Source of the DNA: Pseudomonadaceae bacterium SI-3
GTDB lineage: Bacteria > Pseudomonadota > Gammaproteobacteria > Pseudomonadales > Pseudomonadaceae
Length of the DNA: 64,000 nt
Reading direction: 5' to 3'
Assembly (NCBI GenBank): GCA_004010935.1
Contig: CP026511.1
Location: 1,736,001-1,800,000, forward strand
In this document: one piece after another, positions 28,896-48,183 of the stretch
Layout of the letters: each line of letters begins with the position of its first letter
Numbering within the stretch: position 1 is the stretch's first letter
The notes under the pieces: generated by a model
Seen by the model: the letters and a program-made list of their open reading frames with translations, nothing else
Told to the model about the DNA's origin: nothing
Databases searched by the model: none
Made by a program: the position numbers and the translations under genes

Positions 28896-29870
28896 TCAAT
28901 TCACTGCAGCTGAAGCTTCCCGGCGATAGGCGTAGGTCTCGGCGAAACGCGAAATCATATAGGCACTACAGGTTGTGTCCGGATACTTGGGCGGATTGTC
29001 CCGGCTCTGGCAACCGGGCAGGCAGCTAATGATCGTGTCCGGGTTGGGCTCGGCAAAGAAGGGCATCGAGTAGCGATCGACGCCCAGCGGGCTGATCACT
29101 CGATGCGGCGTTGACTTGTACCGGTCGTTACTCCAGCGCGCCATCATGTCGCCGATGTTGACCACGAAGCTGCCCTCGATTGGCGGCGCATCGATCCACT
29201 CTCCGCGCACATTCTGCACCTGCAAGCCGCCAGCCTGATCCTGGTAGAGCAGCGTGATACAGCCGTAATCGGTATGAGCGCCGGCACCTTGTTGCTCGGG
29301 CGCCGTTGCAGTCTGGCGTGGCGGGTAGTGGATCATGCGGAACACGCTGATCGGCTCGATGAAGCGCTCATCGAAAAAGCCCGACTCGACACCTAGTGCG
29401 TTGGCTACCGCGCGAAGAAGGGTGCAGGCCAGCGCATGCATGTCTTGATAGTGCTGTTCGAACAGCGCCGGCCATCCTTCGAGCTCGGGATGGCGATTCG
29501 GCCCCCGCAACGGCTTGCCCGCCAGCACCTCCGGATGATCGGGAGGCATATGGAAACCCATATCGAAGGTTTCCTTGAGGTCACTTGGCTTGGCGGGGTC
29601 GAGTTGTTCGGTCGCAATCGCTCCGTAACCGCGGTGATGGGTGCTCTTGGTGATATCGATTTGTAGTTTCTGCTCGACGGGCAGTCCGAAGAACTGTTCG
29701 GCAGCACCCTTCAGCTGGGCGATACGCTCGGCGCTGATCGGATGGTTGCGGATATAGAAAAAACCCCAGTCACGGCAAGCCGTGTCGATCTGACGGGCCA
29801 CTTCGTGCCAGCCCTTAACATCCGAGGCGTAGAGCGGCGCGATGTCGATAATGGGGAGTGGTGTGTGCAT
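28896..29870 (-). CDS. Non-haem iron oxygenase, isopenicillin-N-synthase family (paralogue 1)
   Basis: 324 residues of the 2-oxoglutarate/Fe(II) oxygenase superfamily. The iron ligands are H199 and D201 (GAHTDYG) and H256 (KSTPHRV), and R266/S268 (RYS) should hold the co-substrate carboxylate. A family N-terminal domain is present (LPIIDIAPL, DWGFFYIRNH). Known members include ACC oxidase, flavonoid enzymes and fungal thymine 7-hydroxylase, so 2-oxoglutarate-driven hydroxylation is likely. The substrate is unknown; the nearby nucleoside importer suggests a nucleobase. It lies 152 bases after the binding-protein gene on the same strand. The start has GGAG. Confidence 0.85.
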   Translation of the reverse strand: MHTPLPIIDIAPLYASDVKGWHEVARQIDTACRDWGFFYIRNHPISAERIAQLKGAAEQFFGLPVEQKLQIDITKSTHHRGYGAIATEQLDPAKPSDLKETFDMGFHMPPDHPEVLAGKPLRGPNRHPELEGWPALFEQHYQDMHALACTLLRAVANALGVESGFFDERFIEPISVFRMIHYPPRQTATAPEQQGAGAHTDYGCITLLYQDQAGGLQVQNVRGEWIDAPPIEGSFVVNIGDMMARWSNDRYKSTPHRVISPLGVDRYSMPFFAEPNPDTIISCLPGCQSRDNPPKYPDTTCSAYMISRFAETYAYRREASAAVN

Positions 29871-29981
29871 GGATAGCTCCGAGGAATGCTCGCTGCGGTC
29901 TTCTCGTACCGTCAGCCATATAGGGGTTCACCCCTTGCCAGCGGTTCTCCGGAAGGAGGGACGGCACGGCAAATTCCAGGT

Positions 29982-30003
29982 GCCGCGCCTGTGCTGGCGC
30001 GGC
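29982..30003 (-). terminator. Hairpin downstream of the BMP binding-protein gene
   Basis: GCCGCGCC (29982-29989) and GGCGCGGC (29996-30003), a perfect 8-bp GC-only stem, 20 bases past the stop at 30023. No T-run follows on the minus strand, so it may be a partial terminator or a 3' stabilising structure. The same stem occurs at 38921-38940. Confidence 0.5.
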
Positions 30004-30022
30004 TTGCGCAGCGGCCGCTGGG

Positions 30023-31114
30023 TTACTTCGGCAGATCGGCAGTGATGCCGTTGACGTAGTAGTTCATCGAGGCCAACTCGCCGTTGCTGGCGGTGGCACC
30101 CTCGGCAATACGCACGGTGCCGGTCTGATCCTTGATCGGGCCGGTGAATGGGTGAAACGCCCCGCTGCGGATGCTGGCGATGATGTCTTCTGCCTCGGTT
30201 TTCACCTCAGCGGGTACCAGATCGCTGATCGGCAAGCTGATGGTTTCCTCTGCCAGACCACCCCAGAAGTCCTGCGGCTTCCAGCTGCCGTCGACGACTG
30301 CCTTTGCCGATTTGCTGTAGTGCGGCCCCCAGTCGTTGACGATGGACGTCAGCACGGCCTTCGGGCCGAAGTGGGACATGTCCGATGCATAGCCGACCGA
30401 ATAGACGCCGCGGCGCTCGGCAGCCTGAATCGGCGCCGGGCTGTCGGTGTGCTGGAAGACCACATCGACGCCCTGGTCGATCAGTGCGTTGGCAGCATCC
30501 GCCTCCTTGCCCGGATCGAACCAGGAGTTCACCCACACCACCTTGATTTCGGTGCCGGGGTTGTACTTGTCGAGCGCTAACTGGATGGCGTTGATGTCGC
30601 GGATCACTTCAGGAATCGGGAAGGAGGCGATGTAGCCGATCTTCTTGCTCTTGGTCATCTTTGCCGCGAGGAAGCCGCCGACGTAACGGCCTTCATAGGA
30701 GCGCGACAGGTAGGTGCCGAGGTTCTTGTCCTGCTTGTAGCCGGTGGCGTGCTCGAAGGTCACCTTGGGGAATTGCTTGGCGACTTTGAGCGTCGGGTTC
30801 ATGTAGCCAAAGGACGTGGTGAAGATCAGGTCATAGCCACCCTTGGCCATGTTGCGGATCACTCGCTCGGCATCGGCGCCTTCGGCAACGTTCTCGACGA
30901 AGGTGGTCTCGACCTGCTCGCCGAGCTCTTTTTCCAGATACTGGCGGCCCATCTCATGCTGGTAAGTCCAGCCGTGGTCGCCGATCGGGCCTACGTAGAC
31001 AAAGCCGACCTTCAGCGGATCAGCGGCGAAGGCTGCGCCAGTGGAAAGGGCACTGGTAAAGCCGATGGCAACGGCAAGGCTGCGCAGCAAGGCGCTCCGT
31101 GGTTTCTTCTGCAT
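30023..31114 (-). CDS. BMP-family nucleoside ABC transporter, periplasmic binding protein
   Basis: 363 residues with a signal peptide ending AAFA-ADPL near residue 30. The mature part matches the Bmp/PnrA family (KVGFVYVGPIGDHGWTYQHE, GYDLIFTTSFGYMNPT, GKEADAANALIDQGVDVVFQHTD), which binds purine and pyrimidine nucleosides. The start at 31114 has AGGAG; an upstream in-frame start at 31249 is unlikely. Its partner ATPase and permeases are at 35063-38730, separated by an SDR gene and a P-type ATPase gene. A palindrome at 31181-31194 lies 67 bases upstream. Confidence 0.92.
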   Translation of the reverse strand: MQKKPRSALLRSLAVAIGFTSALSTGAAFAADPLKVGFVYVGPIGDHGWTYQHEMGRQYLEKELGEQVETTFVENVAEGADAERVIRNMAKGGYDLIFTTSFGYMNPTLKVAKQFPKVTFEHATGYKQDKNLGTYLSRSYEGRYVGGFLAAKMTKSKKIGYIASFPIPEVIRDINAIQLALDKYNPGTEIKVVWVNSWFDPGKEADAANALIDQGVDVVFQHTDSPAPIQAAERRGVYSVGYASDMSHFGPKAVLTSIVNDWGPHYSKSAKAVVDGSWKPQDFWGGLAEETISLPISDLVPAEVKTEAEDIIASIRSGAFHPFTGPIKDQTGTVRIAEGATASNGELASMNYYVNGITADLPK

Positions 31115-31180
31115 GTGAATGACGCTCCTGTGTGTCATGACGCGAGGGCCGTAGCGGCTGCCTGTCCGATTGCAAAAAGC

Positions 31181-31194
31181 TGACCAGATGGACA
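31181..31194 (-). promoter_or_regulatory. Candidate RutR-like operator upstream of the binding-protein gene
   Basis: TGACCAGATGGACA is one base from the perfect palindrome TGACCA-NN-TGGTCA, close to the E. coli RutR site (TTGACCA-NN-TGGTCAA). The flank GCAAAAAGC on its left recurs at the site at 38752. Confidence 0.6.
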
Positions 31195-31381
31195 GATCGC
31201 CGTGTTGCCGGCTCGCGGATGTCAGGAAGTGCCCACAAGCGCTGTGCACTGGAGCGCTAGTGGTGCGTCATTCGTTCGGGCTGCCCCAGGGCTGTGCACT
31301 GCTTGCTCGGCAGGGGCTACCAGCTCTCAAGCGTCAGCGCCGGCTCTGATGCAAGTCGAGCAGCCGGGGCACCTTGTTGCA

Positions 31382-32062: not shown

Positions 32063-32204
32063 GAGAGATCCTTGTGGTGGAAGGGGGTTTCGAGCATAGC
32101 GCGGCGCAACGACATCAGCGCGTGCGGGGCGGCTGCGACATTCGACCGCTGCCTCTGTGTTGCAACGCGTGTCCCTGCGATAGCTATGTTGATCTTTATT
32201 GGGC

Positions 32205-32214
32205 TCTCATGAGA
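32205..32214. other. Palindrome upstream of the P-type ATPase gene
   Basis: TCTCATGAGA, a perfect 10-base palindrome 50 bases before the ATPase start, in the divergent interval between the SDR and ATPase genes. It may be an operator; no family match is claimed. Confidence 0.25.
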
Positions 32215-32263
32215 CCACTGTGTTGCCGGATTCGGCACCGCGAATCAACACCAGGGGGATCCA

Positions 32264-34978: not shown

Positions 34979-35025
34979 GGACGACGTATTGCGCAGGGAG
35001 CGCATGGAAACGAATGGCCGCAGAT

Positions 35026-35055
35026 GGAAAGCGAGGCCTGGAAGGCCCGCTTTCC
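35026..35055. terminator. Bidirectional hairpin between convergent ATPase and permease genes
   Basis: GGAAAGCG (35026-35033) pairs with CGCTTTCC (35048-35055) and GGCCT (35035-35039) with AGGCC (35043-35047), a 13-bp stem with one bulged A and a GGA loop. It sits between the P-type ATPase stop (34978) and the convergent permease stop (35063), where a shared terminator is expected. No T-run follows. Confidence 0.6.
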
Positions 35056-35062
35056 TGGCCGA

Positions 35063-35989
35063 TCAATGACCGGCTTTCCAAGGTTGCCCCAGCGACACCG
35101 GTGCATACAGGCGGGTGCGAATCGCGTCGCGTGAGAGCAGCACCAGCACGACGATGGTTGCCACATACGGCAGCATCGCCAGCAGGTTGCCGGGGATCGA
35201 CAAGCCGATCCCTTGAGCCACCAGATGCAGGATGCTGGCAAGGCCGAACAGATAGGCGCCAAGCAGCACACGCCCTACACGCCAGCTGGCGAATACCACT
35301 AGCGCCAGGGCGATCCAGCCGCGCCCGGCAGTCATATTTTCGGCCCACATCGGGGTATAGGCCAGCGACAGATAACCACCCGCCAACCCGGCCATGGCGC
35401 CTCCGAACAGCACCGCCAACGCCCGAACCCGCAGGACCGGCAGGCCCATGGCGCTTGCCGCGTTGGGGTTCTCACCGACTGCTTGAATGATCAGGCCGAC
35501 GCGGCTTTTCAACAGCACCCAGGCAACCAAGGCGAAAAGCGCGAAGGACAGGTAGACCAGCAGGTCCTGGGCGAACAGCATGCGACCGATCAACGGAATG
35601 TCGCTCAGGAAAGGAATGGCGATCGGTTCGAAACCGGCCAGCGGCTTGCCGACCCAGCCGGCACCGATGAATGAGGACAGGCCGACGCCAAAGATGGTCA
35701 GCGCCAGGCCGGTAGCCACCTGGTTGGCATTGAAGCCCAGCGCCACCAGCGCGAACAGCTGCGACAGCAGCATGCCGCCCAGGCAGGCAAACACCACGCC
35801 CAACCAGAGGTTGCCAGTGGCAAAGGCGGCGATGAATCCGGCCACTGCGCCGAACAGCATCATGCCTTCCTGACCGAGATTGAGGACGCCGGACTTTTCG
35901 CAGACCAGTTCGCCGAGTGCGACCAGCAGCAGCGGCGTTCCGGTCCGGATCATGGCGTAGAAGATGTTGGTGAGTAGGTCGATATCCAT
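35063..35989 (-). CDS. BMP-family nucleoside ABC transporter, permease 2
   Basis: 308 residues with eight to ten membrane helices. The start MDIDLLTNIFYAMIRTGTPLLLVALGELVCEKSGVLNLG (split across the first helix) is typical of the second permease in BMP nucleoside importers, with the family block LNLGQEGMMLFGAVAG. The ATG at 35989 is preferred to the TTG at 35992. It is the last gene of the ATPase-permease-permease operon, 55 bases after permease 1. Confidence 0.92.
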   Translation of the reverse strand: MDIDLLTNIFYAMIRTGTPLLLVALGELVCEKSGVLNLGQEGMMLFGAVAGFIAAFATGNLWLGVVFACLGGMLLSQLFALVALGFNANQVATGLALTIFGVGLSSFIGAGWVGKPLAGFEPIAIPFLSDIPLIGRMLFAQDLLVYLSFALFALVAWVLLKSRVGLIIQAVGENPNAASAMGLPVLRVRALAVLFGGAMAGLAGGYLSLAYTPMWAENMTAGRGWIALALVVFASWRVGRVLLGAYLFGLASILHLVAQGIGLSIPGNLLAMLPYVATIVVLVLLSRDAIRTRLYAPVSLGQPWKAGH

Positions 35990-36044
35990 CAAATCAGCCC
36001 TCGAGCTGTAAGCGGCAAAGCAAAAGAGAAGTGGGGCATGAGGC

Positions 36045-37151
36045 TCATGCGGCTGGCTCCGGCTCGAGCGCCGAAGTGTGCGGCTTGCGGCTCCAGCCCT
36101 TCAGGCGCGGCCGATAGAGAATCAACACGTCGCAGGCCAGCAGGAAGAACAGCACCATGCCCTGGAACAGCTGAGTGATCGACTGCGGCAGGTTGGCCGC
36201 CATCTGGGCGTTTTCGCCACCCAGATAGAGCAATGCCATCAGCAGGCTCGCAAACAGAATCCCGATGGGATTGAGCCGGCCGAGGAAGGCGACGGTGATG
36301 GCGGCATACCCGTAGCCAGGCGATACCTGGGGCACCAATTGACCGATCGGGCCGGTGACTTCGGCAACTCCGGCCAGTCCAGCCAATGCGCCGCTGATCA
36401 ACAGGGCAATCCACACCAGGCGCTTCTCACGAAAGCCGACGAAGCCGGCGGCACGCTTGTCGAGGCCAAGTACCTTGATCTGAAAGCCGAGAAAGCTCCT
36501 GTGCAGCAGCACCCATATCACCACCAATGCCAGCAGGGCGAAGTAGAAACCGCCATGCACGCGCAGATCTTCGAACAGCTGGGGCAGACGGGTGGCGTCG
36601 CCGAACATCGCCGACTCGGGGAAGTTGAAGCCTTCAGGATCTTTCAACGGCCCATGCACCGCGAACAGCAACAGGTTCAGCGCGATGTAGTTGAGCATGA
36701 TGCTGGTGAGGATTTCGTTTGCATTGAACTGAGTGCGCAGCCAGGCGCAGAGACCAGCCCAGGCGGAGCCGCCGAGGGTCCCCGCCGCGAGCGTAAGGGG
36801 CAGCGCCCAGCGCGAGTCCCAATCGATGATGTTCACCGCCAGCGCACTGCCGGCCAACGCCCCGATAAGCAACTGACCCTCGGCACCGATATTCCAGATA
36901 CGCGCGTTGTACACCACGGCCAGGCCCAGGGCGCAGAGCAGAATCGGTAACGCCTTGACCAAGAGTTCGGAGACGCCGTAGAGGTCACTGACCGGATCGA
37001 TCAGCAGCACTCGCAGCGTCTCCAGCGGCGGGTGACCCAGTGCGACGAACAACAGCGCGCCGCTGATCAGCGTCAGCAACGCAGCAAGCAGTGGCGACAG
37101 CCAGAGCATTGGTCGCGATTCATAGCCGCGTGGTTCTAGGGATAACAACAT
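36045..37151 (-). CDS. BMP-family nucleoside ABC transporter, permease 1
   Basis: 368 residues, about nine helices. The blocks NIGAEGQLLIGALAG and FNANEILTSIMLNYIAL are family hallmarks of the first permease. The stop-to-start gap from the ATPase gene is only 10 bases, so the genes are cotranscribed. The start at 37151 lies after a TGAGAG ribosome site; the longer frame from 37244 would overlap the ATPase gene and lacks membrane character. The C-terminus carries a short charged tail. Confidence 0.92.
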   Translation of the reverse strand: MLLSLEPRGYESRPMLWLSPLLAALLTLISGALLFVALGHPPLETLRVLLIDPVSDLYGVSELLVKALPILLCALGLAVVYNARIWNIGAEGQLLIGALAGSALAVNIIDWDSRWALPLTLAAGTLGGSAWAGLCAWLRTQFNANEILTSIMLNYIALNLLLFAVHGPLKDPEGFNFPESAMFGDATRLPQLFEDLRVHGGFYFALLALVVIWVLLHRSFLGFQIKVLGLDKRAAGFVGFREKRLVWIALLISGALAGLAGVAEVTGPIGQLVPQVSPGYGYAAITVAFLGRLNPIGILFASLLMALLYLGGENAQMAANLPQSITQLFQGMVLFFLLACDVLILYRPRLKGWSRKPHTSALEPEPAA

Positions 37152-37161
37152 ACGAAGGCTC

Positions 37162-38730: not shown

Positions 38731-38751
38731 GGCATGCCAGTAGCAAAAAGC

Positions 38752-38765
38752 TGGCCAGCTAGTCA
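38752..38765 (-). promoter_or_regulatory. Candidate RutR-like operator upstream of the nucleoside ABC operon
   Basis: TGGCCAGCTAGTCA, two bases from TGACCA-NN-TGGTCA. It and the flank GCAAAAAGC (38743-38751) align with 31172-31195: 20 of 24 bases are identical by eye, although the coding regions that follow are unrelated. Confidence 0.6.
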
Positions 38766-38920
38766 GGAAATGCCGAGAAGAACGGGGTAGCGCAGATACG
38801 CCGCTGGACGTTGGTCAACCGAGCGCTGTGGGTGCTTCGCTTTGGTGCTTGCTTGTCGGATGGGTCTGTCATGTGCACCGTTGCAGGGCGTGGCAACTGA
38901 ATGCACGGATCGTGAAGCAT

Positions 38921-38940: not shown

Positions 38941-38949
38941 GTTTGCGTG

Positions 38950-39405
38950 CTACGGCGCGACTGGGTCGGGCACCTCGCGCAACGCCTGCGCCGCATCGAT
39001 GGCTCGAGGAAAACCCGCGGTGACGGTGGTCAGGTACACCACTTCTTTCAGTTCATCCCGTGTAACGCCAAGACGCAGCGCGTAACCGGCGTACACCTTC
39101 ATGTAGGGCAGGTTGCCCTGCGCGGCGAAAGCGGCGACTACGGCCAGCTGGCGGGTTCGATCATCCAGGCCGCTGCGCCCCCAGACATCGCCCAGCGCAT
39201 AACGGGTGATGCCGTCCGCTAGAAACGGATAGTCCTCCCGCAGCGCTTCGAGTACGGGCTGACCAGCACCGCCAGACAGATGATCCATGACCTCGACGCC
39301 GCGGGTGTGGCGCTCGTTGCCGACCGCATCCAGCGAGGCAAATGTCAGCGAGCCGAGCAACCCCAGGCAGACCGCGCTCAATGCGTTACCAGTGAGTAGA
39401 TTCAT
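38950..39405 (-). CDS. Exported carboxymuconolactone-decarboxylase-like protein
   Basis: 151 residues. A signal peptide (about 1-24, LSAVCLGLLGSLTFAS) precedes a carboxymuconolactone decarboxylase (CMD/AhpD-like) domain: GDVWGRSGLDDRTRQLAVVAA and LPYMKVYAGYALRLGVTRDELKE (read as two blocks). The CxxC of AhpD peroxidases is absent, so a disulphide peroxidase role is unlikely. Such exported CMD proteins are of unknown function. The start at 39405 has GAGGA. It follows the SDR gene by 10 bases and ends the operon. Confidence 0.8.
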   Translation of the reverse strand: MNLLTGNALSAVCLGLLGSLTFASLDAVGNERHTRGVEVMDHLSGGAGQPVLEALREDYPFLADGITRYALGDVWGRSGLDDRTRQLAVVAAFAAQGNLPYMKVYAGYALRLGVTRDELKEVVYLTTVTAGFPRAIDAAQALREVPDPVAP

Positions 39406-39415
39406 CGCGGCGTCC

Positions 39416-40153
39416 TCAGTAGGGGCTGGCGGTCGGACGAACCACCAGTTCGCTGACATCGACATCAGCCGGTTGCTCGACGGCGTAGGCGATGGCCCGA
39501 GCGATGGCCTCGGCGGGAATGGCAATCCGGCGGAAGTCATCCATGGCTGCCCGCGCGCCCTCATCGGAGATGCTTTCGGCCAGTTCCGATTCGGTGACGC
39601 CGGGTGACACCAGCGTGACGCGAATATCCCCGCCGACCTCCTGACGCAGCCCTTCGGAAATGGCGCGTACCGCGTACTTGGTGGCGCAGTAGACGGCGGC
39701 GGTAGGGCTGACCGCGTAAGCACCGATGGAGGCGATGTTGATGAACTGACCTGAACGCTGGCGCTGCATCAGCGGAAGGCCGGCCGCGATGCCATGCAGC
39801 ACGCCACGGATGTTCACGTCGATCATCCGGTCCCATTCGTCGACCTTCAGGGCATCGAGGCGCGACAAGGGCATTACCCCGGCGTTGTTGATGATCACAT
39901 CGACCCGACCAAAGCGCTGCTCGGCGAAATCGACGAAGGCCTGGGTATCCTCGCGGCGGGTCACATCCAATGCACGACAGGCCGCGATACCGCCTGTTTC
40001 GGTGATGCTGGCGACAAGTTTCTCTAGTCGTTCGACGCGTCGTGCGCCCAGTACGACCGTGGCGCCTTCGGCGGCCAGCAGCCGCGCCGTCGCTTCGCCG
40101 ATACCACTGCTGGCGCCGGTGATGAGTACGATTTTTCCGTTGCTGTTTGACAT
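39416..40153 (-). CDS. Short-chain dehydrogenase/reductase
   Basis: 245 residues, classical SDR: ITGASSGIGEA (about 11-21), NNAGVM, catalytic Ser in NIASIGAYAVS, and YCATKYAVRAIS carrying Tyr and Lys. An ARR motif after strand two favours NADP(H). The start at 40153 follows GGAGG. It is coupled to the exported CMD-like gene downstream (10 bases) and lies 127 bases after the deaminase gene, so it may be the end of the same operon or a small unit of its own. The substrate is unknown. Confidence 0.85.
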   Translation of the reverse strand: MSNSNGKIVLITGASSGIGEATARLLAAEGATVVLGARRVERLEKLVASITETGGIAACRALDVTRREDTQAFVDFAEQRFGRVDVIINNAGVMPLSRLDALKVDEWDRMIDVNIRGVLHGIAAGLPLMQRQRSGQFINIASIGAYAVSPTAAVYCATKYAVRAISEGLRQEVGGDIRVTLVSPGVTESELAESISDEGARAAMDDFRRIAIPAEAIARAIAYAVEQPADVDVSELVVRPTASPY

Positions 40154-40280
40154 GTGCAGCACCTCCGCTAGGTCATTCGAATCGACGCCCATGCGCCGTG
40201 ATTTGAATGCTAGGCAGAGGGTCGCACCTGGCGTTATGTCGATCCTGCCGAGGGCTTGCCTGATTCTGGCCCTGTGCAGC

Positions 40281-40751
40281 TCACCAGATACCGTCGTGCA
40301 ATGCAGCCGCTTCCTCTTCAAGCAGAGGACCGATCACTTCGACCTTGCGTTGGCCGGCTTCGAAGACCACGCGGCAGGGCAGATCCAGCGTCGGGTTTTC
40401 CGGATGGTTACCGGTAATGGCTTTCAGGCTGCGTTCGGAGAGGCCGTACACCACCCGCCCAAGGCCCACCCAGTACGCGGCGCCGGCGCACATAGCGCAG
40501 GGCTCGGCGGAGGTGTACATGGTGCAGCGGGAGAGAAATTCCGGTGTGTAGCGGGTCGAGGCGCGCGTCATCAGCACGCGTTCGGCGTGGCCGGTCATGT
40601 CGTGATCGGGCATGTAGGCGTTGCCTTGTTCGAGCAGAGTTTCACCGTCGGGGCCCACCAAGATGGCGCCGAAGGGGTGCGTGCCCTCGGCCAGGGCGCG
40701 ACGGGCGACATCGAAACTTTTGCGTAGCAGGGCAGCGTCGTCTAAGGGCAT
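40281..40751 (-). CDS. Nucleobase/nucleoside deaminase (CDA fold)
   Basis: 156 residues of the cytidine deaminase-like superfamily. Zinc ligands H55 (GHAERVLM, with E57 as proton shuttle), C85 and C88 (EPCAMCAG) are intact. The layout is closest to small guanine/cytosine deaminases rather than tRNA-editing TadA, which keeps a different C-terminus. It would release ammonia from an imported base or nucleoside. It is the sixth gene of the operon that begins with oxygenase paralogue 2, 37 bases after the permease. The exact substrate cannot be read. Confidence 0.85.
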   Translation of the reverse strand: MPLDDAALLRKSFDVARRALAEGTHPFGAILVGPDGETLLEQGNAYMPDHDMTGHAERVLMTRASTRYTPEFLSRCTMYTSAEPCAMCAGAAYWVGLGRVVYGLSERSLKAITGNHPENPTLDLPCRVVFEAGQRKVEVIGPLLEEEAAALHDGIW

Positions 40752-40788
40752 GTCGAAATGTCCATGGAATAGTAAAGAGGCGGCGGGG

Positions 40789-41562
40789 TTAGCCTTCGTT
40801 CTTCGGCACGCTCCAGGTGAACAGCAGGCGCTGCACCAGGCCGACCAGTTGAAACAGGCCCAGGCTGATGATCACCAGCATCATCAGAGCGGCGAACGCC
40901 TGCGGAACCTGAAACATCGACGTCGAGAAGTTGATGAAGTAACCCAACCCTTTGTCCGCCGCGACGAACTCGGCGACCACTGCACCGATCACGGCCAAGG
41001 TGATGGAGATGCGCAGTGCCGAGAACAGGTGAGGGATCGCATAGGGCAGGCGGATGTTGCGGAACTCGCGTGCCCGGGATGCGCCCAGCGAGCGCGACAG
41101 TTCGATCAGCTCCGGCGGCGTCGCCAGCAGGCCGGTCACTGTCGACACCACGATCGGGAAAAAGGCGATCAGAAAGGTGATGAACACCCGTGGCAAGTCA
41201 CCAGCGCCCATCACCACGACAATGATCGGCGCGACGGCGACAATCGGCGTGGACTGGACGATCACCAGCAGCGGGTAGAGGGTGCGAGACAACAGCCTGG
41301 ACGAGGCGAGGGCGATGGCCAGCGGAATGCCGATCAGAATCGACAGGCCATAGCCGAGCAGGGTGACGCGCAGGGTCGCGAAAATGTGCTCGGCCCAGAT
41401 CGTTGGGTCAAGTTTCCAGGTAGCGGTGAGGATGGCGCTGGGGGAGGGCAGCACGAAAGCGGGCAGGCTGAACGCCCAGCAGGCCGCTTCCCAGAGTAGT
41501 AACAGGCCGAGCAGCGCCAGCCCTGGGGCGAAGCGTTCGCCCATTGCTCGATTAAAGGCCAT
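40789..41562 (-). CDS. ABC transporter permease (NMT1-type importer)
   Basis: 257 residues, about six helices, with the BPD permease loop ELIELSRSLGASRAREFRNIRLPYAIPHL (seen in two blocks: EAA-type motif then LP). Related permeases serve taurine, sulfonate and thiamine-pyrimidine importers. The start at 41562 overlaps the ATPase gene stop by 11 bases, so translation is likely coupled. It pairs with the ATPase and binding protein directly upstream. Confidence 0.9.
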   Translation of the reverse strand: MAFNRAMGERFAPGLALLGLLLLWEAACWAFSLPAFVLPSPSAILTATWKLDPTIWAEHIFATLRVTLLGYGLSILIGIPLAIALASSRLLSRTLYPLLVIVQSTPIVAVAPIIVVVMGAGDLPRVFITFLIAFFPIVVSTVTGLLATPPELIELSRSLGASRAREFRNIRLPYAIPHLFSALRISITLAVIGAVVAEFVAADKGLGYFINFSTSMFQVPQAFAALMMLVIISLGLFQLVGLVQRLLFTWSVPKNEG

Positions 41563-42352
41563 GGCGGCTGAACACCTTGCGACGGATATGGTTGGCGAGC
41601 TCGTTGAAGCGGGGCTCGGTAAGGGTGTCAAGGGACCGTGGCCGTGGCAGTTCGACATCTATGATCTCGGTTATCCGCCCTGGGCGCGCCGACATCACCA
41701 GAATGCGGTCAGCCAGCAGCAGCGCTTCGGGGATCGAATGGGTGATGAACAAGACCGTCTTCGGACGCTGGGTCCATATGTTCAGCAGTTCCAGACTGAG
41801 CTCGTCGCGCGTCAGAGCATCAAGCGCCGAGAAAGGCTCGTCCATCAGCAGGATTTCGGGGTCGTGTAGCAGCGCGCGGGCGATTCCGGCGCGCTGCTGC
41901 ATTCCGCCGGACAGCTCGTCCGGGCGCTTCCCTCCGAATTCCTTTAGGCCGACCAGCTCGAGCAATTCTTCGCCGCGCTCACGCTCTTGCGCGGTGACCC
42001 TGCCGTATTTGTGCTTCATCGGAAAGGTCAGGTTGTCGCGGATCGTCAACCAGGGCAGCAGGGTGGGCTTCTGGAACACGATGCCGACTTCGTCCCGCGG
42101 GCCATCGAGTTTCTTGCCGTAAATGCTCACCTGGCCGCTAGTGGGACGAATGAGGCCAGCGAGGATTCGCAGCAACGTCGACTTGCCGCAGCCCGAAGGG
42201 CCGATCACCGCGATGAACTCGTGGCGATCGATGGCGAAGCTGGTGTCGTCGAGGGCGACTACTTCGCTGCCGTCCGAGGCGGTGAACACCTGCCGAACCT
42301 GCTCGAAGGTGATGCTCGGCCGGGCAGCCGAGCGGGTTTCGGTCTGATTCAT
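41552..42352 (-). CDS. ABC transporter ATP-binding protein (NMT1-type importer)
   Basis: 266 residues with Walker A GPSGCGKST, Q-loop VFQKPTLLPWLT, signature LSGGMQQR, Walker B ILLMDEPFSALD and the H-loop FITHSIPEAL, the SsuB/TauB/ThiZ subgroup. It starts at 42352, 4 bases after the binding-protein stop. The longer frame to 42490 lies inside that gene and is not used. It energises uptake through the permease at 40789. Confidence 0.93.
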   Translation of the reverse strand: MNQTETRSAARPSITFEQVRQVFTASDGSEVVALDDTSFAIDRHEFIAVIGPSGCGKSTLLRILAGLIRPTSGQVSIYGKKLDGPRDEVGIVFQKPTLLPWLTIRDNLTFPMKHKYGRVTAQERERGEELLELVGLKEFGGKRPDELSGGMQQRAGIARALLHDPEILLMDEPFSALDALTRDELSLELLNIWTQRPKTVLFITHSIPEALLLADRILVMSARPGRITEIIDVELPRPRSLDTLTEPRFNELANHIRRKVFSRHGL

Positions 42353-42356
42353 GCGA

Positions 42357-43337
42357 TTACTCGACGAAGCCGTTGGCAATGACCTGAGCCGGGTCGAGGC
42401 TGTCGCTCGGCAGGTTCTGTGCGCGGGCGACCCATTGCCAAGTGGTCTCCAGGCGCTTGGCATCGAACTTGGCAGTGCCCTCGGCTTCACTGATCTCGTT
42501 CTGCATCAGCGGAACTGACGCCTCGAACTGCTCCACGGCCTGCTGCTCGTCGATCTCCGGGACCATTTTCTTGAGCGCAGCCGCGGCTGCAGCCGGGTCC
42601 GCAATAGCCATTTCTTGGGCCTGGCGGTAGGCCTTGATGAATTTCTTGGCGACCTCGGGTTTGTCCTTCAGGAAGCGCTCGGAGGCGATCAACGACAGGC
42701 CATAGCCGTCGAAGCCATAGTCCGACCACGGGATGACTTTGAGCTGTTTCCCAGCTTCCTGCATCGAACGGGCAAAACCGGGCGCGACGGTGACCCAGTT
42801 GATGGTCGCGTCAACCTTGCCGGTGGCCAGCATGGGCGCTAGCGCGCCGGGGTCCAGCTTGAGCAGCTTTACCCCATCGCGAGGGATGCCGTTGGCTTCC
42901 AGGACCAGCGGAAACACCACATTCGAAGCAGAAAAGGTTGGGGTGGCGACAGTCTTGCCGGCGATGTCCTTGAACTGTTCGATGCCCGAGCCTTCGGCGG
43001 TGAAGAAGGCGTCTGGTTGTTTGTTGTAGATCGGTGCCACGGCGACCACCGGCACCGGCCCCTGCGCCCGTGCCTGAAGCACCGAGGCCAGCCCAGCGCT
43101 GCCAAAGTCAGCGCTGGCGGTTGCCAGCTTGGTGACCACGTCGCTGCCGCCGCGTGCACTGGCGATTTCCACTTCAATGTCTTGCTCGGCGAACAGGCCC
43201 TTGTCGACACCAAGATAGATCACCGCCTTGTCGCCAGCAGGTAGCCAGTCGTTCAACCAGCGCACGTTATCGGCCGCCAGCGCCGCTTGGGAGAACAGGG
43301 CCAGCAGTGAACTGGCGATCAGGGTTTTCTTGAACAT
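42357..43337 (-). CDS. ABC transporter binding protein, NMT1/THI5-like
   Basis: 326 residues; a signal peptide ends near residue 22 (FSQAALA-ADN). The mature N-terminus (LNDWLPAGDKAVIYLGVDKG, then LFAEQDIEVEI) is the NMT1/THI5-like pattern used by binding proteins for pyrimidine precursors such as formyl-aminopyrimidine, and by aliphatic sulfonate or riboflavin binders. The clustering with a deaminase and a RutR-like regulator favours a pyrimidine-type ligand. The start at 43337 has AAGGAG. Confidence 0.88.
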   Translation of the reverse strand: MFKKTLIASSLLALFSQAALAADNVRWLNDWLPAGDKAVIYLGVDKGLFAEQDIEVEIASARGGSDVVTKLATASADFGSAGLASVLQARAQGPVPVVAVAPIYNKQPDAFFTAEGSGIEQFKDIAGKTVATPTFSASNVVFPLVLEANGIPRDGVKLLKLDPGALAPMLATGKVDATINWVTVAPGFARSMQEAGKQLKVIPWSDYGFDGYGLSLIASERFLKDKPEVAKKFIKAYRQAQEMAIADPAAAAAALKKMVPEIDEQQAVEQFEASVPLMQNEISEAEGTAKFDAKRLETTWQWVARAQNLPSDSLDPAQVIANGFVE

Positions 43338-43377
43338 GGGGCGTCGCTCCTTGATAGGCGTCACGAGAGGGTGTCGA

Positions 43378-44139
43378 TCAGAAAACGGGGTTGGGATGAC
43401 GTGAAAAGAACGGCAGCAAGCTGGCGAGCAATAACTCCGGGGCGGCCAGTTGCGGTGCGTGCCCACAGTCGAGGGTGACCCGCTCTGCGCCCGGCACCAG
43501 CTCTTGCATCCAGCGCTGAACGGCCGGGACTACCGAGCGGTCCGTACCGCATTCGATGTACAGGCGTGGCAGGCGACCAAAGCGCTCGGCTGTCCAGCGC
43601 GCCACGACTGCGCGCCCGCCGTCCGGTTGTGAGCCCAGCCGTTGCGCGGCGGCCAATGCTTGCGGCAGCTGTACGTCATGGAAGAACAGCGCACAGGCAA
43701 TCTCGGCGGGAACGCGAGTGCCGAGTCCGTCAGCGCTGCGTTGCAGGAACGGCCCCACACCGGACACTTCCGGCGCCGTGCTGACCAGCTCTGCGCAGGC
43801 ATCGGCAAAGGACAGGCCGCTGGGCAACATCATGCCGGCTACATAGGTGACGCCTGCGATGCGTTCGGCGCGCTTTTCGGCCACGGCTGTCGCCGTCATC
43901 CCCCCGCCGGAGTGCGCCACCAACTGCACGGGCCCTTCCAGTTGATCGATCAGGGCACATACGTGCGCGGCGTAGATGTCGAGGCTTACCGCCGCTGCTG
44001 GCGTGTCATCGCTACCGTTTCCGGGCAGGTCCACGGCGTGAGGCCTGAATCCGGCAGCCCGCAGCCCGTCGAGCAAGCGGTCCCAGACCCAGCTGCCAGC
44101 CCAAGCGCCGTGAATCAATACGACATGACGGTCAGGCAT
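43378..44139 (-). CDS. Alpha/beta hydrolase
   Basis: 253 residues: oxyanion block VLIHGAWAGSWVWD, nucleophile S77 in VAHSGGG, a charged turn near IECGTDRSV and the catalytic His in CGHAPQ near the end. The size and lack of a signal suggest a cytoplasmic esterase or amidase of the salicylate-esterase (MES-like) type. In this operon it may open a ring or split an amide in the pathway; that is a guess. It overlaps the oxygenase gene by 8 bases and has AGGAGG. Confidence 0.85.
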   Translation of the reverse strand: MPDRHVVLIHGAWAGSWVWDRLLDGLRAAGFRPHAVDLPGNGSDDTPAAAVSLDIYAAHVCALIDQLEGPVQLVAHSGGGMTATAVAEKRAERIAGVTYVAGMMLPSGLSFADACAELVSTAPEVSGVGPFLQRSADGLGTRVPAEIACALFFHDVQLPQALAAAQRLGSQPDGGRAVVARWTAERFGRLPRLYIECGTDRSVVPAVQRWMQELVPGAERVTLDCGHAPQLAAPELLLASLLPFFSRHPNPVF

Positions 44140-45112
44140 ACGTCCTCCTGTACATCTCGCGGTAGTGTTCTTCCACCGTCACGCCAGGGTAGCGCGGCGC
44201 TTCGCCGGCTTCGAGGCAGGTCGGGATGCAGCTCACCTGATGGTCAGGGTTGCCGCCGTAGAAAAAGGGCACGCTGTAGCGCTCGTGCCCGGATAGATTC
44301 ACCACGCGGTGCAGGGTCGAGCGGTAACGGTCGTTGGTCCAGCGAGCGATCATGTCGCCGAGGTTGACGACGTATGTACCGGGCAGCGGCGGGGCGTCCA
44401 TCCAGGCTCGCGCGCTACGGCTCCAGACCTGCAGGCCAGGATTATCGTCCTGCAGCAACAGCGTCAGGCCGCCGAAGTCGGTGTGCGCGCCGCACCCCTT
44501 CTCGCCAAGTGCTGCCATTTCGGGCTGCGGTGGATAGTGCAGCAGGCGCAGGGTGGCCATGGCTTGATCACAAAAGCCGGCGAAGTAGTTCTCCGGCAAC
44601 TCAAGCGATAGCGCCAGGCCTGCCATCAATCGCTCTGAGAGATCGGTCATGGCGGCGTGATAACGCTCCATGGCGGGGCGGAAGCCATGCAACGCCACCG
44701 GCCACTGGTTCGGCCCGTGATTGAAGCGCCCGGCTTGCACGCGCGGGTCGTCTGCCGGCAGGTCGCGGCCCAGGTAGAAGCCTTCCTTCATGTCAGCCGG
44801 CGCGCCGGGCTCCAGGCACTGGCCTCGCAGCGCTTCATAGCCGCGGTTGGCTGGTGACGCGGCCTTGTCGAGTGCTCGCTTGGCCTCGTCAGGCAGGTCG
44901 AATAACTGCCGCGTCTGCTCGAACACGGCCGCTTGTAACCTCGCATCGATGCCATGCTTGTATATGTAGAAGAAGCCCCACTCACGGCAGGCCTGTCCGA
45001 TCTGCCCGGCGACGGCATTGCGTTGCTGTGAATCGCTGCTGACCAATCCGGTCAGGTCGATCAGCGGCAGGTAGCACGCTTGGGCTGGGTCTGAACTGAG
45101 TGGGTAGGCCAT
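44132..45112 (-). CDS. Non-haem iron oxygenase, isopenicillin-N-synthase family (paralogue 2)
   Basis: 326 residues. Iron ligands H210 and D212 (GAHTDFG) and H268 (RSTLHRV), with R278/S280 (RYS) for the carboxylate of the co-substrate. It shares the plan of the enzyme at 28896, including YPP near 195 and the ND-RY-ST run before the distal His, but it differs enough to have another substrate. It is the first gene of an operon with the hydrolase, an ABC importer and a deaminase. The start at 45112 lies after AGGTG. Confidence 0.86.
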   Translation of the reverse strand: MAYPLSSDPAQACYLPLIDLTGLVSSDSQQRNAVAGQIGQACREWGFFYIYKHGIDARLQAAVFEQTRQLFDLPDEAKRALDKAASPANRGYEALRGQCLEPGAPADMKEGFYLGRDLPADDPRVQAGRFNHGPNQWPVALHGFRPAMERYHAAMTDLSERLMAGLALSLELPENYFAGFCDQAMATLRLLHYPPQPEMAALGEKGCGAHTDFGGLTLLLQDDNPGLQVWSRSARAWMDAPPLPGTYVVNLGDMIARWTNDRYRSTLHRVVNLSGHERYSVPFFYGGNPDHQVSCIPTCLEAGEAPRYPGVTVEEHYREMYRRTYA

Positions 45113-45499
45113 GACATGGCACCTGCAACGGAGGGGCGGGGGCCCGTTGTGGCGCAGTATCCGGTGCGTTAGCTGTACGCAAAAGAAGAGAATATCGAGC
45201 ATCCCGATGCCGTTTCGGCATCGGTTGTTACTGCCTCTTTTGAGGGCGGGAATCGCTCTAATACGGGGCTTACGACATCCTGCGCCGGCGTTGGGTTGGG
45301 TTGCTTGGCGTCATTGTTTGGCGAGGCGCTGCGCCCCGGAATGGAGCACTCAGGGTGCCTTCTGATGAGGTTGAAAAATTTCACATGCCAGGGCTGGCGC
45401 GTCGAATACAGAGCGCGCCGGCGATTGAAATCTGAGCGCGCAGAGAGATAAGGCGAGGAGGGGGATCGGACGGTGCGGGTAGAAGGTGAACAGAGGGAA
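45113..45499. other. Leader region between lysR and the oxygenase operon
   Basis: 387 bases with no credible gene. It holds a perfect 9-bp hairpin at 45204-45224 and presumably the operon promoter. I could not place -35/-10 elements with confidence, and I found no TGACC-type palindrome here. Confidence 0.4.
45204..45224 (-). other. Perfect hairpin in the oxygenase operon leader
   Basis: CCGATGCCG (45204-45212) and CGGCATCGG (45216-45224) with a TTT loop, 92 bases upstream of the oxygenase start. It could terminate lysR transcripts, attenuate the operon, or be an operator. Confidence 0.55.
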
Positions 45500-46444
45500 T
45501 CAGGTGCACTCGGTCTCGGCGCGCTCGTATTGTTCGCGGCGGGTGATTTCCTCGCAGAGCGCGCGAACGAACGCGTCCACCGCCACCGGGAGGTAGCGTG
45601 AGCTGCGCACGTACACCCCGAGATCACTGAGCACCTGACCATTGTCGTTGAGTGGCAAGTGCACAAGAGTGCCGGTGGACAGTTCCGCTTCGATGCCGAT
45701 GCGCGTCTGGAACGCGATGCCAGCGCCACGTTTGGCCATTTGCGCTGCAAGCTCCACCGAGCTGGTCTCCAGCGCCGCTTTCTGCGGCGAGCGGGTGCGC
45801 GCCAACACCGGGGCGAGCAAGTGATGAATCGAAAGGTCGCTTTTCGCCAGGATCAGGCGGTGTTCGGCACAGGTTGAGAAACTCACCTCGCGGCGTCCCG
45901 CCAACGGATGATTGGCGGGCACAATGGCACCGAGTCGAAAGTGGCCGACGCCCAGCTGCTGCAAATCAGCGGTTCGCCGCAGCGCAAAGGCGATCCCGAT
46001 ATCAGCCTGACCGCTGGTAACCGCCTCGGGAATGGCTTGCGAGCCCAAGCTGGTCACCCCGACGGTGATATGCGGATAGCGCGCTGTCATGCCTTCGAGC
46101 ACCGAAGGCAGCAGGTCGACCGTGACGCCCGAGACCGTTGCAATCTCCACATGGCCGGTGCGCAGCCCCTGCAATGCGTCCAGCTCGGAGCTGGCCCGCG
46201 CAGCGTCCTGCAAGACCACGAGCACGTGGCGAGCGAATACCTCACCTGCAGCGGTCAGACGCAGCCCGGCCGGCAGGCGCTCGAACAGCGGTGAACCTAT
46301 TTCGGCCTCAAGTTTGAGGATTTGCCGGTTCACGGCGGAGGAGGCCACGTTGAGCCGGCGCGCGGCTTCGCGGATCGACTGACAGCGTCGCACCATGTCG
46401 AAGTAATGAATCGCGGGGGAATGAATGCGCAGACGACGGGACAT
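45500..46444 (-). CDS. LysR-family transcriptional regulator
   Basis: 314 residues. The N-terminal winged helix (about 5-65) has SIREAARRLNVASSAVNRQI and LEAEIGSPLFERL; the rest is a two-lobed PBP2 effector domain. It lies on the same strand directly upstream of the oxygenase-importer operon, separated by a 387-base leader, so it is the natural candidate to control it. It starts 42 bases after the TetR gene and may be cotranscribed with it. The effector is unknown. Confidence 0.9.
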   Translation of the reverse strand: MSRRLRIHSPAIHYFDMVRRCQSIREAARRLNVASSAVNRQILKLEAEIGSPLFERLPAGLRLTAAGEVFARHVLVVLQDAARASSELDALQGLRTGHVEIATVSGVTVDLLPSVLEGMTARYPHITVGVTSLGSQAIPEAVTSGQADIGIAFALRRTADLQQLGVGHFRLGAIVPANHPLAGRREVSFSTCAEHRLILAKSDLSIHHLLAPVLARTRSPQKAALETSSVELAAQMAKRGAGIAFQTRIGIEAELSTGTLVHLPLNDNGQVLSDLGVYVRSSRYLPVAVDAFVRALCEEITRREQYERAETECT

Positions 46445-46486
46445 ACAGATTGATGGCTCGGGGTGGGCGGCAGAATGGCGCAGGGG

Positions 46487-47152
46487 TCAGCGCGGCGGCG
46501 TCAGGCCACAGCCTTTGAGAATCACTCTGATCAGCGTCTCGGTGCCACGTTCGAAATCGTCCTTGGTGATGCGGCGCTGGCCAGTGATGCGCCGAATCTG
46601 GTCGGAGAAATCAGCGTAGTGCTGAGTGCTGCTCCAGATCAGGAAGATCAGATGCATGGGGTCGATCGGGTCCATCTTGCCGGCATCGCTCCAGCCCTGC
46701 AGTACGGCGGCGCGACCGCGAAACCACTCGCGATAATCCTCGTTGAAGTGTGCGGACAGGCATTCGCAACCGCTGATGACTTCCATGGCAAAGATTTTCG
46801 AGGCCTGTGGCTGCTTGCGAGAGAACTCCATCTTGGTGCGGATGTAGTCCGCCAGCGCAATGGCTGGGTCGTCTTCCACGGTCAGATGATCGAACGCGCT
46901 ATCCCAGAGCTCGAGGATATGGCGCATCACTTCGACGTAGAGGCCGAGCTTGTTGGTGAAGTAGTAATGCAGGTTGGCCTTCGGCAGCCCGGCGCGAAGC
47001 GCAATTGCATTCATGCTGGTGCCCTTGTAGCCGTGGCGGGCGAATTCTTCGGCTGCGGCTGAAAGGATCAGCTCCTCGTTCTTCTGACGAATCCGTCCGG
47101 TGCGTTTACCGTCGGTGGGCGTCTGCGGCAGCAAAGCGTCGAAAGTGGTCAT
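46487..47152 (-). CDS. TetR-family regulator, RutR-like
   Basis: 221 residues. The helix-turn-helix is GTSMNAIALRAGLPKANLHYYF; the C-terminal part (QASKIFAMEVISG, IDPMHLIFLIWSSTQHYADF) matches the YcdC/RutR ligand domain, which in E. coli RutR binds uracil or thymine. The start MTTFDALLPQ at 47152 follows AAGGA. It is the likely binder of the TGRCCR-NN-YRGNCA sites at 31181, 38752, 48218 and 48383, all in front of transport genes. That assignment is inferred. Confidence 0.87.
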   Translation of the reverse strand: MTTFDALLPQTPTDGKRTGRIRQKNEELILSAAAEEFARHGYKGTSMNAIALRAGLPKANLHYYFTNKLGLYVEVMRHILELWDSAFDHLTVEDDPAIALADYIRTKMEFSRKQPQASKIFAMEVISGCECLSAHFNEDYREWFRGRAAVLQGWSDAGKMDPIDPMHLIFLIWSSTQHYADFSDQIRRITGQRRITKDDFERGTETLIRVILKGCGLTPPR

Positions 47153-47376
47153 AAGGTCCTTTCCCTGTGTCGGCGGCATCAGGCCCGATGCGCTATCGAA
47201 TGCTAGCCTACGCGGGCTACGGAGAAGGTGGCTACAGACCTTCGGACGGGTCGTGCGCCCACGCCGAACTGAAGCGGGGGTCGAGAAAGCACAACAGCGG
47301 CACCGTTTGGGCGCCGCCGCTGGTGAACAAGACCGTTCAGGCGGCATGCCGCCCGTGGAACGAGCGGCTGTGCATA
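47153..47376. other. Interval between tsx-like gene and TetR gene
   Basis: 224 bases with no gene. The perfect 14-base palindrome GGCGGCATGCCGCC lies at 47340-47353, 24 bases past the tsx-like stop; it could end that transcript or be an operator for the TetR/LysR pair. Confidence 0.35.
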
Positions 47377-48183
47377 TTAGAAATGCACCTTCACGATGGC
47401 GTTCCAGGCGCTCTGGTCGGTCGGGCCGACAAAGTTCTCGCTGACGAAGCCGCCGTCTTTGATGCCGTACTTGTTCGACCAGTAGTCATATTCGATACCG
47501 ACATAGAGCTGACCGGCCTTCTGGTACACGGCCTTGCCGAGGTCATATTTAACCTGCGGGTTGATGTGCAGGTTCTTCGATTGGAAGTCGTCCGAGCCTT
47601 CATTGCCGGCGTCATTGACCACCCAGTCGATATAGCCATCGATGAGAATGTCCGAGCTGCCGACGGGAATGGTGATGGCCCAAGTCGGGGTGATCTGCCA
47701 CTGGCCGGAGGCCTTGTTACGAATGCCGTCAGGCTTGCGGTAATAGGTGTTGATGGCCAGACGGTCGAAGCCCGGGACTGCCAGATCAACGGCGGGGCCG
47801 AGCAGGTAGTTCTGCACTTCGTTCTCGCCGCGCTCGTAGGTGAAGGCCACCAGCACATCCTTGATCGGGCCGTAGGAGAAATCCATTCCGGTGGTCTTTC
47901 CGAGCGACAGACGCGGGCTGAACTCGCCGTAGTAGGTGCGTGCGGCCTCGCTGTCGTCCTGGCTTTCGTTCCACTTGTAGTCGACGAACAGGAACACGTC
48001 GCCATAGGTCCAGCCACTGGCATGTTCGAAGGTCAGGGTGTGCTGGGTATCGGGGTCGACCTTGAAATCGTTCCCGTACAGATAGGTCAGGCTGTTGTTT
48101 TGCCAGAGCATCGGTGCGGCGATTGCCTGGCCAGCGAGCATCATGCTGCTTGCGAGTGCGGCAGTGGTCAGTATGGATTTCAT
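47377..48183 (-). CDS. Tsx-like nucleoside-specific outer membrane channel
   Basis: 268 residues with a signal peptide (cut near AIA-APM, residue 23) and alternating beta strands ending in the outer-membrane signature VKVHF. The blocks LTYLYGNDFKVDP, FLFVDYKW and GEFSPRLSLGK are typical of the Channel_Tsx family, twelve-stranded barrels passing nucleosides. It supplies the outer-membrane step for the two inner-membrane importers of this region. Two candidate operators lie upstream. It is monocistronic. Confidence 0.9.
   Translation of the reverse strand: MKSILTTAALASSMMLAGQAIAAPMLWQNNSLTYLYGNDFKVDPDTQHTLTFEHASGWTYGDVFLFVDYKWNESQDDSEAARTYYGEFSPRLSLGKTTGMDFSYGPIKDVLVAFTYERGENEVQNYLLGPAVDLAVPGFDRLAINTYYRKPDGIRNKASGQWQITPTWAITIPVGSSDILIDGYIDWVVNDAGNEGSDDFQSKNLHINPQVKYDLGKAVYQKAGQLYVGIEYDYWSNKYGIKDGGFVSENFVGPTDQSAWNAIVKVHF

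Follow-up and report, generated by a model that had tools for sequence, protein, structure and literature searches.

The DNA analysed here (hereafter the window) is a 64,000-nucleotide stretch of Pseudomonadaceae bacterium SI-3, positions 1736001–1800000 of its single 4.84-Mb contig, and its genes were examined over about 23–52 kb of the window. Going by the nearest proteins (96% for 'Pseudomonas sp.', 93% for Stutzerimonas zhaodongensis), the host is a Stutzerimonas. From the gene of a Tsx-like outer-membrane channel (48183) to that of an oxygenase that we call OX1 (28896), it carries two ABC importers, a second oxygenase (OX2), a deaminase, a hydrolase and two regulators. A first-pass annotation had read them as a nucleobase-catabolic island, and all the genes that it named were found in their places. 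Based on the sequences and on gene neighbourhoods in other genomes, we regard the island as probably an accessory set for the scavenging of purine bases.

Genes of the island

All genes from the Tsx-like channel to OX1 lie on the minus strand, a P-type ATPase excepted. OX1 (28896..29870) and OX2 (44132..45202, probable start 45112) are 42% identical to each other, and both carry DIOX_N (PF14226) and 2OG-FeII_Oxy (PF03171) domains over the Pfam cut-offs. The HxD...H and RxS sites are intact in both, as first annotated, and are kept in 16 of 16 OX1 and 34 of 34 OX2 rows of a residue alignment, with Ala for Ser in one OX1 row. This alignment holds 113 oxygenase rows, those of the window included, with at least 230 profile positions and at least 100 bits each, a few of them being the same genome fetched twice. 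Identity limits defined the OX1 and OX2 groups, so that two sequences with the OX1 pocket signature, from G259 and Vibrio maerlii, were counted as 'other' (G numbers denote genomes and L numbers loci). Judged by these features, OX1 and OX2 are Fe(II)/2-oxoglutarate oxygenases of the IPNS type, and their top-scoring solved relative with a named nucleobase substrate is thymine 7-hydroxylase (T7H). At the T7H thymine contacts Asn87, Glu122, Tyr217 and Asn294, OX1 has H79, D103, Y202 and E274, the Tyr alone being kept, and OX2 has N, Y, F/W and S/G/T/A in all 34 rows, the Asn alone being kept. With one of four base contacts retained in each, thymine 7-hydroxylase was rejected as the predicted identity of either protein.

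The BMP-type importer comprises a PnrA-like substrate-binding protein (30023..31249, probable start 31138; PF02608, 195 bits), permease 1 (35063..35992), permease 2 (36045..37244) and an ATPase with two ABC domains (37162..38730). The NCBIfam models for a putative B6 BMP transporter are not reached (68 of 400, 212 of 465, 183 of 400 and 441 of 670 bits, the last three being permease 1 with NF047928, permease 2 with NF047929 and the ATPase with NF047930). Genes 84–99% identical to permease 1 adjoin OX1 or OX2 in relatives. The closest solved relatives of the binding protein, over nearly its whole mature length, are 3s99 (414 bits) and AtzT (6pi5, 378 bits). According to the binding values in PMC6834077, AtzT binds guanine at 0.11 µM, ammeline at 0.36 µM and adenine at 2.5 µM, with 620–1600 µM for thymine, cytosine and uracil; 2-hydroxyatrazine is a further ligand there, and adenine is given as modelled in 3s99. 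Pocket residues were mapped by counting through the alignments, the number in the paper being the chain index plus 5. Ser97, Phe98, Glu165 and Trp194 of AtzT are kept in the window protein, and Tyr45, Asn218 and Asn220 are replaced by Trp, His and Asp, exactly as in 3s99. In the second shell, Thr139 is replaced by Arg, as also in 3s99, and Asn169 by Asp (Gly in 3s99). The protein is thus predicted to belong to an AtzT/3s99-type purine-binding subgroup, and among the features of the island it is this predicted pocket that points most directly to a purine ligand.

The second importer is of the NMT1 type, with a permease (40789..41658), an ATPase (41552..42490) and an NMT1/THI5-like binding protein (42357..43466; PF09084, 142 bits) whose best PDB match is 4nmy (91 bits), with THI5 at 59 and 3ix1 at 54 bits. 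On one side of it lies a CDA-fold, TadA/GuaD-like deaminase (40281..40751; PF00383, 67 bits), which best matches 8wlw (87.5 bits), gives 48 bits with guanine deaminase 1wkq and reaches 57 of 150 bits with the TadA model. On the other side, overlapping OX2, is an alpha/beta hydrolase (ABH, 43378..44139; PF12697; best PDB matches 8hfw with 72 and SABP2 with 69 bits), which adjoins OX2 in the cassette of relatives as well. Beyond OX2 come an adjoining LysR regulator (45500..46444), found by OX2 also in L103, L116, L128, L048 and L153, a RutR-like TetR regulator (46487..47347, probable start near 47149) and the Tsx-like nucleoside channel itself (47377..48183), which passes PF03502 with 44.9 bits against a gathering score of 27.2 and falls short of the NCBIfam Tsx model (20 of 311).

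The remaining genes, which the first-pass annotation did not name, are variable. Inside the BMP importer genes lie an SDR (31382-32062) and, on the plus strand, a P-type cation ATPase (32264-34978) which occupies the same spot in some relatives and is absent from others. Between the importers lie an accessory SDR oxidoreductase (39416..40321; PF00106) and an accessory carboxymuconolactone-decarboxylase-domain (CMD) protein (38950..39723; PF02627) that some relatives are without. Both this pair and the inner SDR with the P-type ATPase vary among relatives. The SDR and CMD open reading frames (ORFs) at 38950-40321 overlap; by eye, the CMD protein probably starts near 39405, with a signal-peptide-like N-terminus. 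Because listed ORFs of the island overlap (OX2 and ABH, the NMT1 ABC genes, the CDA and SDR genes, and the BMP ATPase and permease pair), few transcripts are suggested, and an operon structure is what we infer for the island. Outside it, at 51918-53396, a KaiC/RecA-like tandem ATPase gene was noticed by eye.

Neighbourhoods in other genomes

In a survey of 116 genomes of relatives, our own included, OX1 (threshold E ≤ 1e-90) occurs in 43 and OX2 in 33 of those 43; among the OX2 entries is a copy of 59% identity from G047, which has a different setting (L060). In G013 (L035:16949-17907) OX1 was matched as two adjoining pieces, and the gene is probably broken there. The xanthine dehydrogenase gene xdhB (TIGR02965) is present in 42 of the 43 OX1 genomes and lies 1675–1715 bp from OX1 in 29 of them, with xdhA in the gap where it was read (G012, G042). 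These 29 genomes are related and do not amount to 29 independent events. On the side opposite to xdh, 1440–1804 bp from OX1, an 8-oxoguanine deaminase gene over the NF006055 cut-off was found in all 16 of the 29 that were covered by the scan. In G012, one strand carries 8-oxoguanine deaminase, BMP binding protein, OX1, xdhA, xdhB and guaD. The other 13 OX1 genomes with xdhB, ours among them, have it at a distance or on a separate contig.

Purine genes accompany the oxygenases in other taxa as well. In Vibrio maerlii (L123), a 52%-identical OX1 with its pocket signature kept lies between guaD (538 bits, over the TIGR02967 cut-off) with a PF06181 urate oxidase and a PRK12393 amidohydrolase, and an NMT1 importer and a CDA gene adjoin it. 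In another genus (G056), 8-oxoguanine deaminase, BMP binding protein and OX1 stand together, and in G008 an adenosine-deaminase-family gene comes after OX1. In another family (G113), the OX2-ABH-NMT1-CDA cassette lies by 8-oxoguanine deaminase, PuuE and OHCU decarboxylase, and in Rhodobacteraceae a BMP importer, CDA and xdhCBA are together. Close to the end of a contig, G259 has an OX1 (55%) with a BMP binding protein (61%) beside it and no other markers. As a control, 37 hand-picked loci of other paralogues gave no purine-enzyme marker except a 25%-identity xdhB-like hit in L169, and a full BMP importer adjoins the oxygenase in 17 of them. The control set was drawn without the paralogues near OX2 in G017, G019, G037, G041, G047 and G113, whose neighbourhoods had been retrieved along with OX2; amidohydrolase, permease or Rieske genes occur around some of these. 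L190, retrieved together with the controls, is the OX1 of G056 and was not counted.

The two halves of the island lie together in some relatives and apart in others. The order in G041 and G042 is xdhB, OX1, BMP binding protein, permeases, ATPase, CDA, NMT1 permease, ATPase and binding protein, ABH, OX2, LysR and TetR, with xdhA read between xdhB and OX1 in G042; with G037, where CDA and NMT1 are only 48–62% identical, this makes three genomes in which xdhB, OX1, BMP, NMT1, CDA and OX2 share one stretch. In G003, G010, G012 and G018, OX1 lies by xdhB, 186–216 kb from the OX2 cassette, and the BMP ATPase and permeases remain with CDA, NMT1, ABH and OX2, OX1 and the BMP binding protein being elsewhere. 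That the binding protein is separated from its own permeases there implies cooperation of the two halves.

The group OX2-ABH-NMT1 importer-CDA turns up again in Alphaproteobacteria and in a second family of the order, arranged as LysR-OX2-ABH-NMT1-CDA in L103, L116, L128 (Rhodoplanes, Alphaproteobacteria) and L133. A search with a profile of seven CDA rows returned at least 556 loci, the best 80 of which were inspected in stretches of 3–20 kb, which makes the neighbour counts lower bounds; several Stutzerimonas loci among them are the same assemblies as surveyed genomes (e.g. L068 and G013). Among these best 80, an IPNS-type oxygenase is present in 29 (22 of 72 when the Stutzerimonas loci are set aside), and similarity clusters place the NMT1 permease in 33, the BMP ATPase in 30, ABH in 15, xdhA and xdhB in 12 each and amidohydrolases of the 8-oxoguanine deaminase group in 9; many alphaproteobacterial loci have different neighbours and no oxygenase. 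From its recurrence in other taxa, the grouping is by all appearances beyond chance. In other genomes, too, the oxygenases stay linked to the deaminase and to importers of the BMP and NMT1 types, which supports the island as first proposed; the lack of linkage that the first-pass annotation named as refuting was not observed. The support is not clean, however, as only 10 of the 33 genomes with both oxygenases have the two within 25 kb of each other.

Our own genome has a purine locus at 3.544–3.574 Mb with 8-oxoguanine deaminase, xdhA, xdhB, xdhC, guaD, PuuE, OHCU decarboxylase, ureidoglycolate lyase, a PF06181 urate oxidase and uraH. By the chromosomal purine genes (L148:137-1105), an ORF resembling an IS110-type transposase was seen by eye. 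As first annotated, neither rut genes (rutA–F) nor xanthine dehydrogenase occur among the window genes examined, but xdhABC is present elsewhere on the chromosome. The suggestion that the route would be unlike known ones is accordingly not borne out for the route as a whole; its products very probably enter the canonical xanthine-urate-allantoin pathway, whose genes lie elsewhere on the chromosome, and the delivery of bases is all that the island would have to provide. The imported base remains the best candidate for the substrate of the oxygenases, but the pyrimidine direction of the first-pass annotation needs correction: the neighbours are xdhAB, guaD, 8-oxoguanine deaminase, urate oxidase, PuuE and OHCU decarboxylase, and for the imported base a purine is likelier than a pyrimidine.

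A RutR-type operator and a rut-linked paralogue

Upstream of the BMP binding protein, 41 bp 5' of its ATG, lies the RutR-type operator-like palindrome CTGACCAGATGGACAG (31180..31195). Of 20 such upstream regions, the window included, 17 have a palindrome like CTGTCCANNTGGTCAG at −55 to −61; two more match elsewhere in the region and one has none, and random 260-nt stretches match in 2.7%. The exact box CTGWCCANNTGGWCAG has two sites in the genome, one at 31180 of the window and one at 3553230, 300 bp before the first possible xdhA start. In a scan of 40 genomes chosen from 56 same-genus genomes and four others, the exact box was present in 20 of 24 genomes with OX1, each time 1238–1312 bp from it, and in none of 16 without OX1; G031 and G035 have one extra exact box elsewhere. 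At up to one mismatch, the 72 non-Stutzerimonas CDA loci (the 8 Stutzerimonas loci were left out) contain 14 sites, where 30 shuffled palindromes average 0.37 and never exceed 3. Loci of Marinobacter and P. abyssi (L111, L119, L120, L131) have such a site 28–30 bp before OX2. L119 has two further ones, 38 and 54 bp ahead of one NMT1 binding-protein gene each, and in L129 and L131 a site separates an 8-oxoguanine-deaminase-group gene from an OX1-like gene; three sites (L089, L100, L120:1465) have no assigned gene. A weak palindrome with two mismatches 20 bp 5' of the BMP ATPase gene (38751..38766) may be chance.

Considering its family, the TetR protein of the island is the natural candidate for the reader of the box. 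The RutR-like regulator of the first-pass annotation is present, but it scores below the cut-offs of the RutR equivalog TIGR03613 (196 of 368 bits) and of PRK15008 (180 of 230); it has an orthologue in 47 of the 56 same-genus genomes and is distinct from the RutR-like gene at 3875658. If purine scavenging is indeed the function, the box could also be used to trace further members of the regulon.

A third paralogue, OX3, and a small glyoxalase-like gene form an operon-like array together with the genes of a complete BMP importer. OX3 is absent from our own genome, where an OX1 search at E ≤ 1e-3 matched only OX1 and OX2, and it lies near RutR-like and rut-like genes in L160, L178, L179, L180 and L185. 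In L178, the locus among these that was scanned, RutA, B, C, D and F scored over their cut-offs; the array there spans 8560-16296 and looks like a pyrimidine-side counterpart. With OX3 beside rut and OX1 and OX2 beside purine genes, oxygenase and BMP modules therefore appear to attach to both nucleobase pathways.

Proposed function, alternatives and known systems

In the function that we favour, the Tsx-like porin and the AtzT-type BMP and NMT1-type importers would bring in purine-like bases, and the two oxygenases, the CDA deaminase and ABH would convert modified or otherwise unusable bases for the chromosomal xanthine dehydrogenase-urate-allantoin pathway. OX1 would carry out oxidative N-demethylation, or a similar dealkylation, of a guanine-type base, deamination by the CDA enzyme would then yield xanthine or a substituted xanthine, and OX2 with ABH would serve a second substrate or step, part of the set being controlled through the RutR-type operator. 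The chemistry is guessed, with N-demethylation as a tentative first choice and C8-hydroxylation second. Alkyl removal is a chemistry that 2-oxoglutarate enzymes do well, and the purine pathway in the genome is without such a step. As set out in PMC13054789, amidohydrolases of the AtzB group release dimethylamine from N2,N2-dimethylguanine, so that alkylguanines are possible bacterial substrates. In other genomes (G775 and G019), OX2-type genes are accompanied by a split Rieske oxygenase, a Rieske-reductase fusion and GST in a layout like that of NdmCDE (Ndm roles and layout as in PMC4408171), which by analogy points to dealkylation. In L153:1822-12057 (G775) the order is LysR-OX2-ABH-BMP binding protein, then the split Rieske oxygenase, the Rieske-reductase fusion and GST, with an amidohydrolase nearby.

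Several observations weigh against this function. The island is 1.79 Mb from xdhB in our own genome, close orthologues outside the genus are rare, and CDA, ABH and NMT1 are without close characterised relatives. A paralogue of the same family stands beside rut genes, so that membership of the family is by itself no argument for purines. The Rieske genes close to OX2-type genes score better with SxtT/SxtDIOX (saxitoxin) than with NdmA/NdmB. As to control, of the 16 OX1-less genomes scanned, 11 have the TetR orthologue without an exact box, and G030 carries OX1 and the box and is missing the orthologue, so that TetR would have other targets or another protein would read the box. The OX2 cassette was without a strong box in the scan of the window. 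Among the scanned genomes with OX1 elsewhere, only ours has the exact box by xdhA, and this may be a relic of a BMP-OX1-xdhA site.

Among the alternatives, OX1 could be a purine C8-hydroxylase, turning guanine into 8-oxoguanine or xanthine into urate, with the neighbouring 8-oxoguanine deaminase completing a molybdenum-free bypass of xanthine dehydrogenase; the fungal XanA, of another 2-oxoglutarate family, reportedly C8-hydroxylates xanthine. BMP-OX1 indeed lies between xdhA and 8-oxoguanine deaminase in relatives, an oxygenase stands by an amidohydrolase of that group in L120, L123, L129, L131 and L143, G008 (L063) has OX1 and uraH with no xdhB match at E ≤ 1e-20, and G113 (L048) has OX2, 8-oxoguanine deaminase and PuuE with a best xdhB-like score of 200 bits against a cut-off of 849.5. 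A bypass is nevertheless unlikely, keeping in mind that all but one of the OX1 genomes have xdhB, that xdhB passes its cut-off in 15 of a chosen sample of 18 genomes (not in G008, G113 and G009, the last without OX1 and OX2) and that 8-oxoguanine deaminase lies by xdhA also in G002, which is without OX1. It is likewise doubtful that the substrate is not a nucleic-acid base but a purine-like xenobiotic or natural product, such as an s-triazine, pterin, cytokinin or methylxanthine alkaloid. The AtzT ligands 2-hydroxyatrazine and ammeline in PMC6834077 would fit, as would the several guanine analogues and xenobiotics that PMC13054789 gives for amidohydrolases of the AtzB/8-oxoguanine deaminase group, and the NdmCDE-like Rieske layout; a common natural substrate, by contrast, would agree with the broad distribution within the genus and with the link to the standard purine pathway. 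Quite unlikely is that OX1-BMP and OX2-NMT1-CDA are unrelated modules merely brought together here, as the rarity of close pairs and the occurrence of the OX2 cassette without OX1 in other taxa might suggest: in G003, G010, G012 and G018, where the halves are apart, the BMP ATPase and permeases stay with CDA, NMT1 and OX2, so the halves seem to share one importer, and both modules link to purine genes. Pyrimidines (thymine, 5-methylcytosine or N-methylpyrimidines) are very unlikely despite T7H as the best-scoring solved relative with a named base substrate, the RutR-like TetR, OX3 with its BMP importer by rut genes, low-scoring cytosine deaminases among the CDA relatives and the thiamin-pyrimidine binding protein 3ix1 among those of NMT1, given the purine genes beside OX1 and OX2, the strong discrimination of AtzT-type binding proteins against pyrimidines (PMC6834077) and the loss of three of the four T7H base contacts in each oxygenase.

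It is possible, if somewhat short of probable, that OX1 and OX2 would be, to our knowledge, the first bacterial 2-oxoglutarate oxygenases acting on purine bases in catabolism, one of them dealkylating (or C8-hydroxylating) a guanine-type base that feeds xanthine dehydrogenase, within a plan that puts BMP and oxygenase modules under RutR-family control on both xdh and rut. Little is known of what bacteria do with the methylated or damaged purines that RNA and DNA turnover releases; a 2026 paper (PMC13054789) reports N2,N2-dimethylguanine hydrolases without settling the physiological context in which they act. If the proposal of purine scavenging is true, a testable substrate class becomes available for a large, so far unassigned group of oxygenases (of 7,997 proteins scored against OX2, 3,505 reach E ≤ 1e-60, paralogues included).

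The island resembles several known systems in part. The T7H of Neurospora (PDB 5c3p-5c3s) shares with OX1 and OX2 the fold, the IPNS-type subfamily and the catalytic core, including Arg190, Phe292 and the 2-oxoglutarate anchors, and its action on a free base is the likeness that we propose for an imported base; the base contacts differ, and OX1 and OX2 are bacterial, importer-linked and set in a purine neighbourhood. AtzT and 3s99 share the pocket scaffold of the BMP protein at 378–414 bits over nearly full length, which differs from AtzT in its Trp/His/Asp for Tyr45/Asn218/Asn220. Like the Rut/RutR system, the island has a RutR-family regulator and a RutR-like operator, and an OX3-BMP paralogue lies by rut genes in relatives, but the island itself has no rut gene and its TetR is under the RutR cut-off. 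Caffeine N-demethylation (NdmABCDE) and the N2,N2-dimethylguanine hydrolases (NdmH) likewise feed alkylated purines into xanthine, and relatives of their genes lie by oxygenases of this family in other genomes; they are, however, Rieske oxygenases or amidohydrolases rather than 2-oxoglutarate oxygenases, and none is in the island. Canonical purine catabolism (GuaD, XdhABC, PuuD, UraH, OHCU decarboxylase and PuuE), finally, is linked to OX1 and OX2 in relatives and encoded elsewhere in our genome, and to it the island adds oxygenases, a CDA deaminase, a hydrolase and importers that lie outside the textbook pathway.

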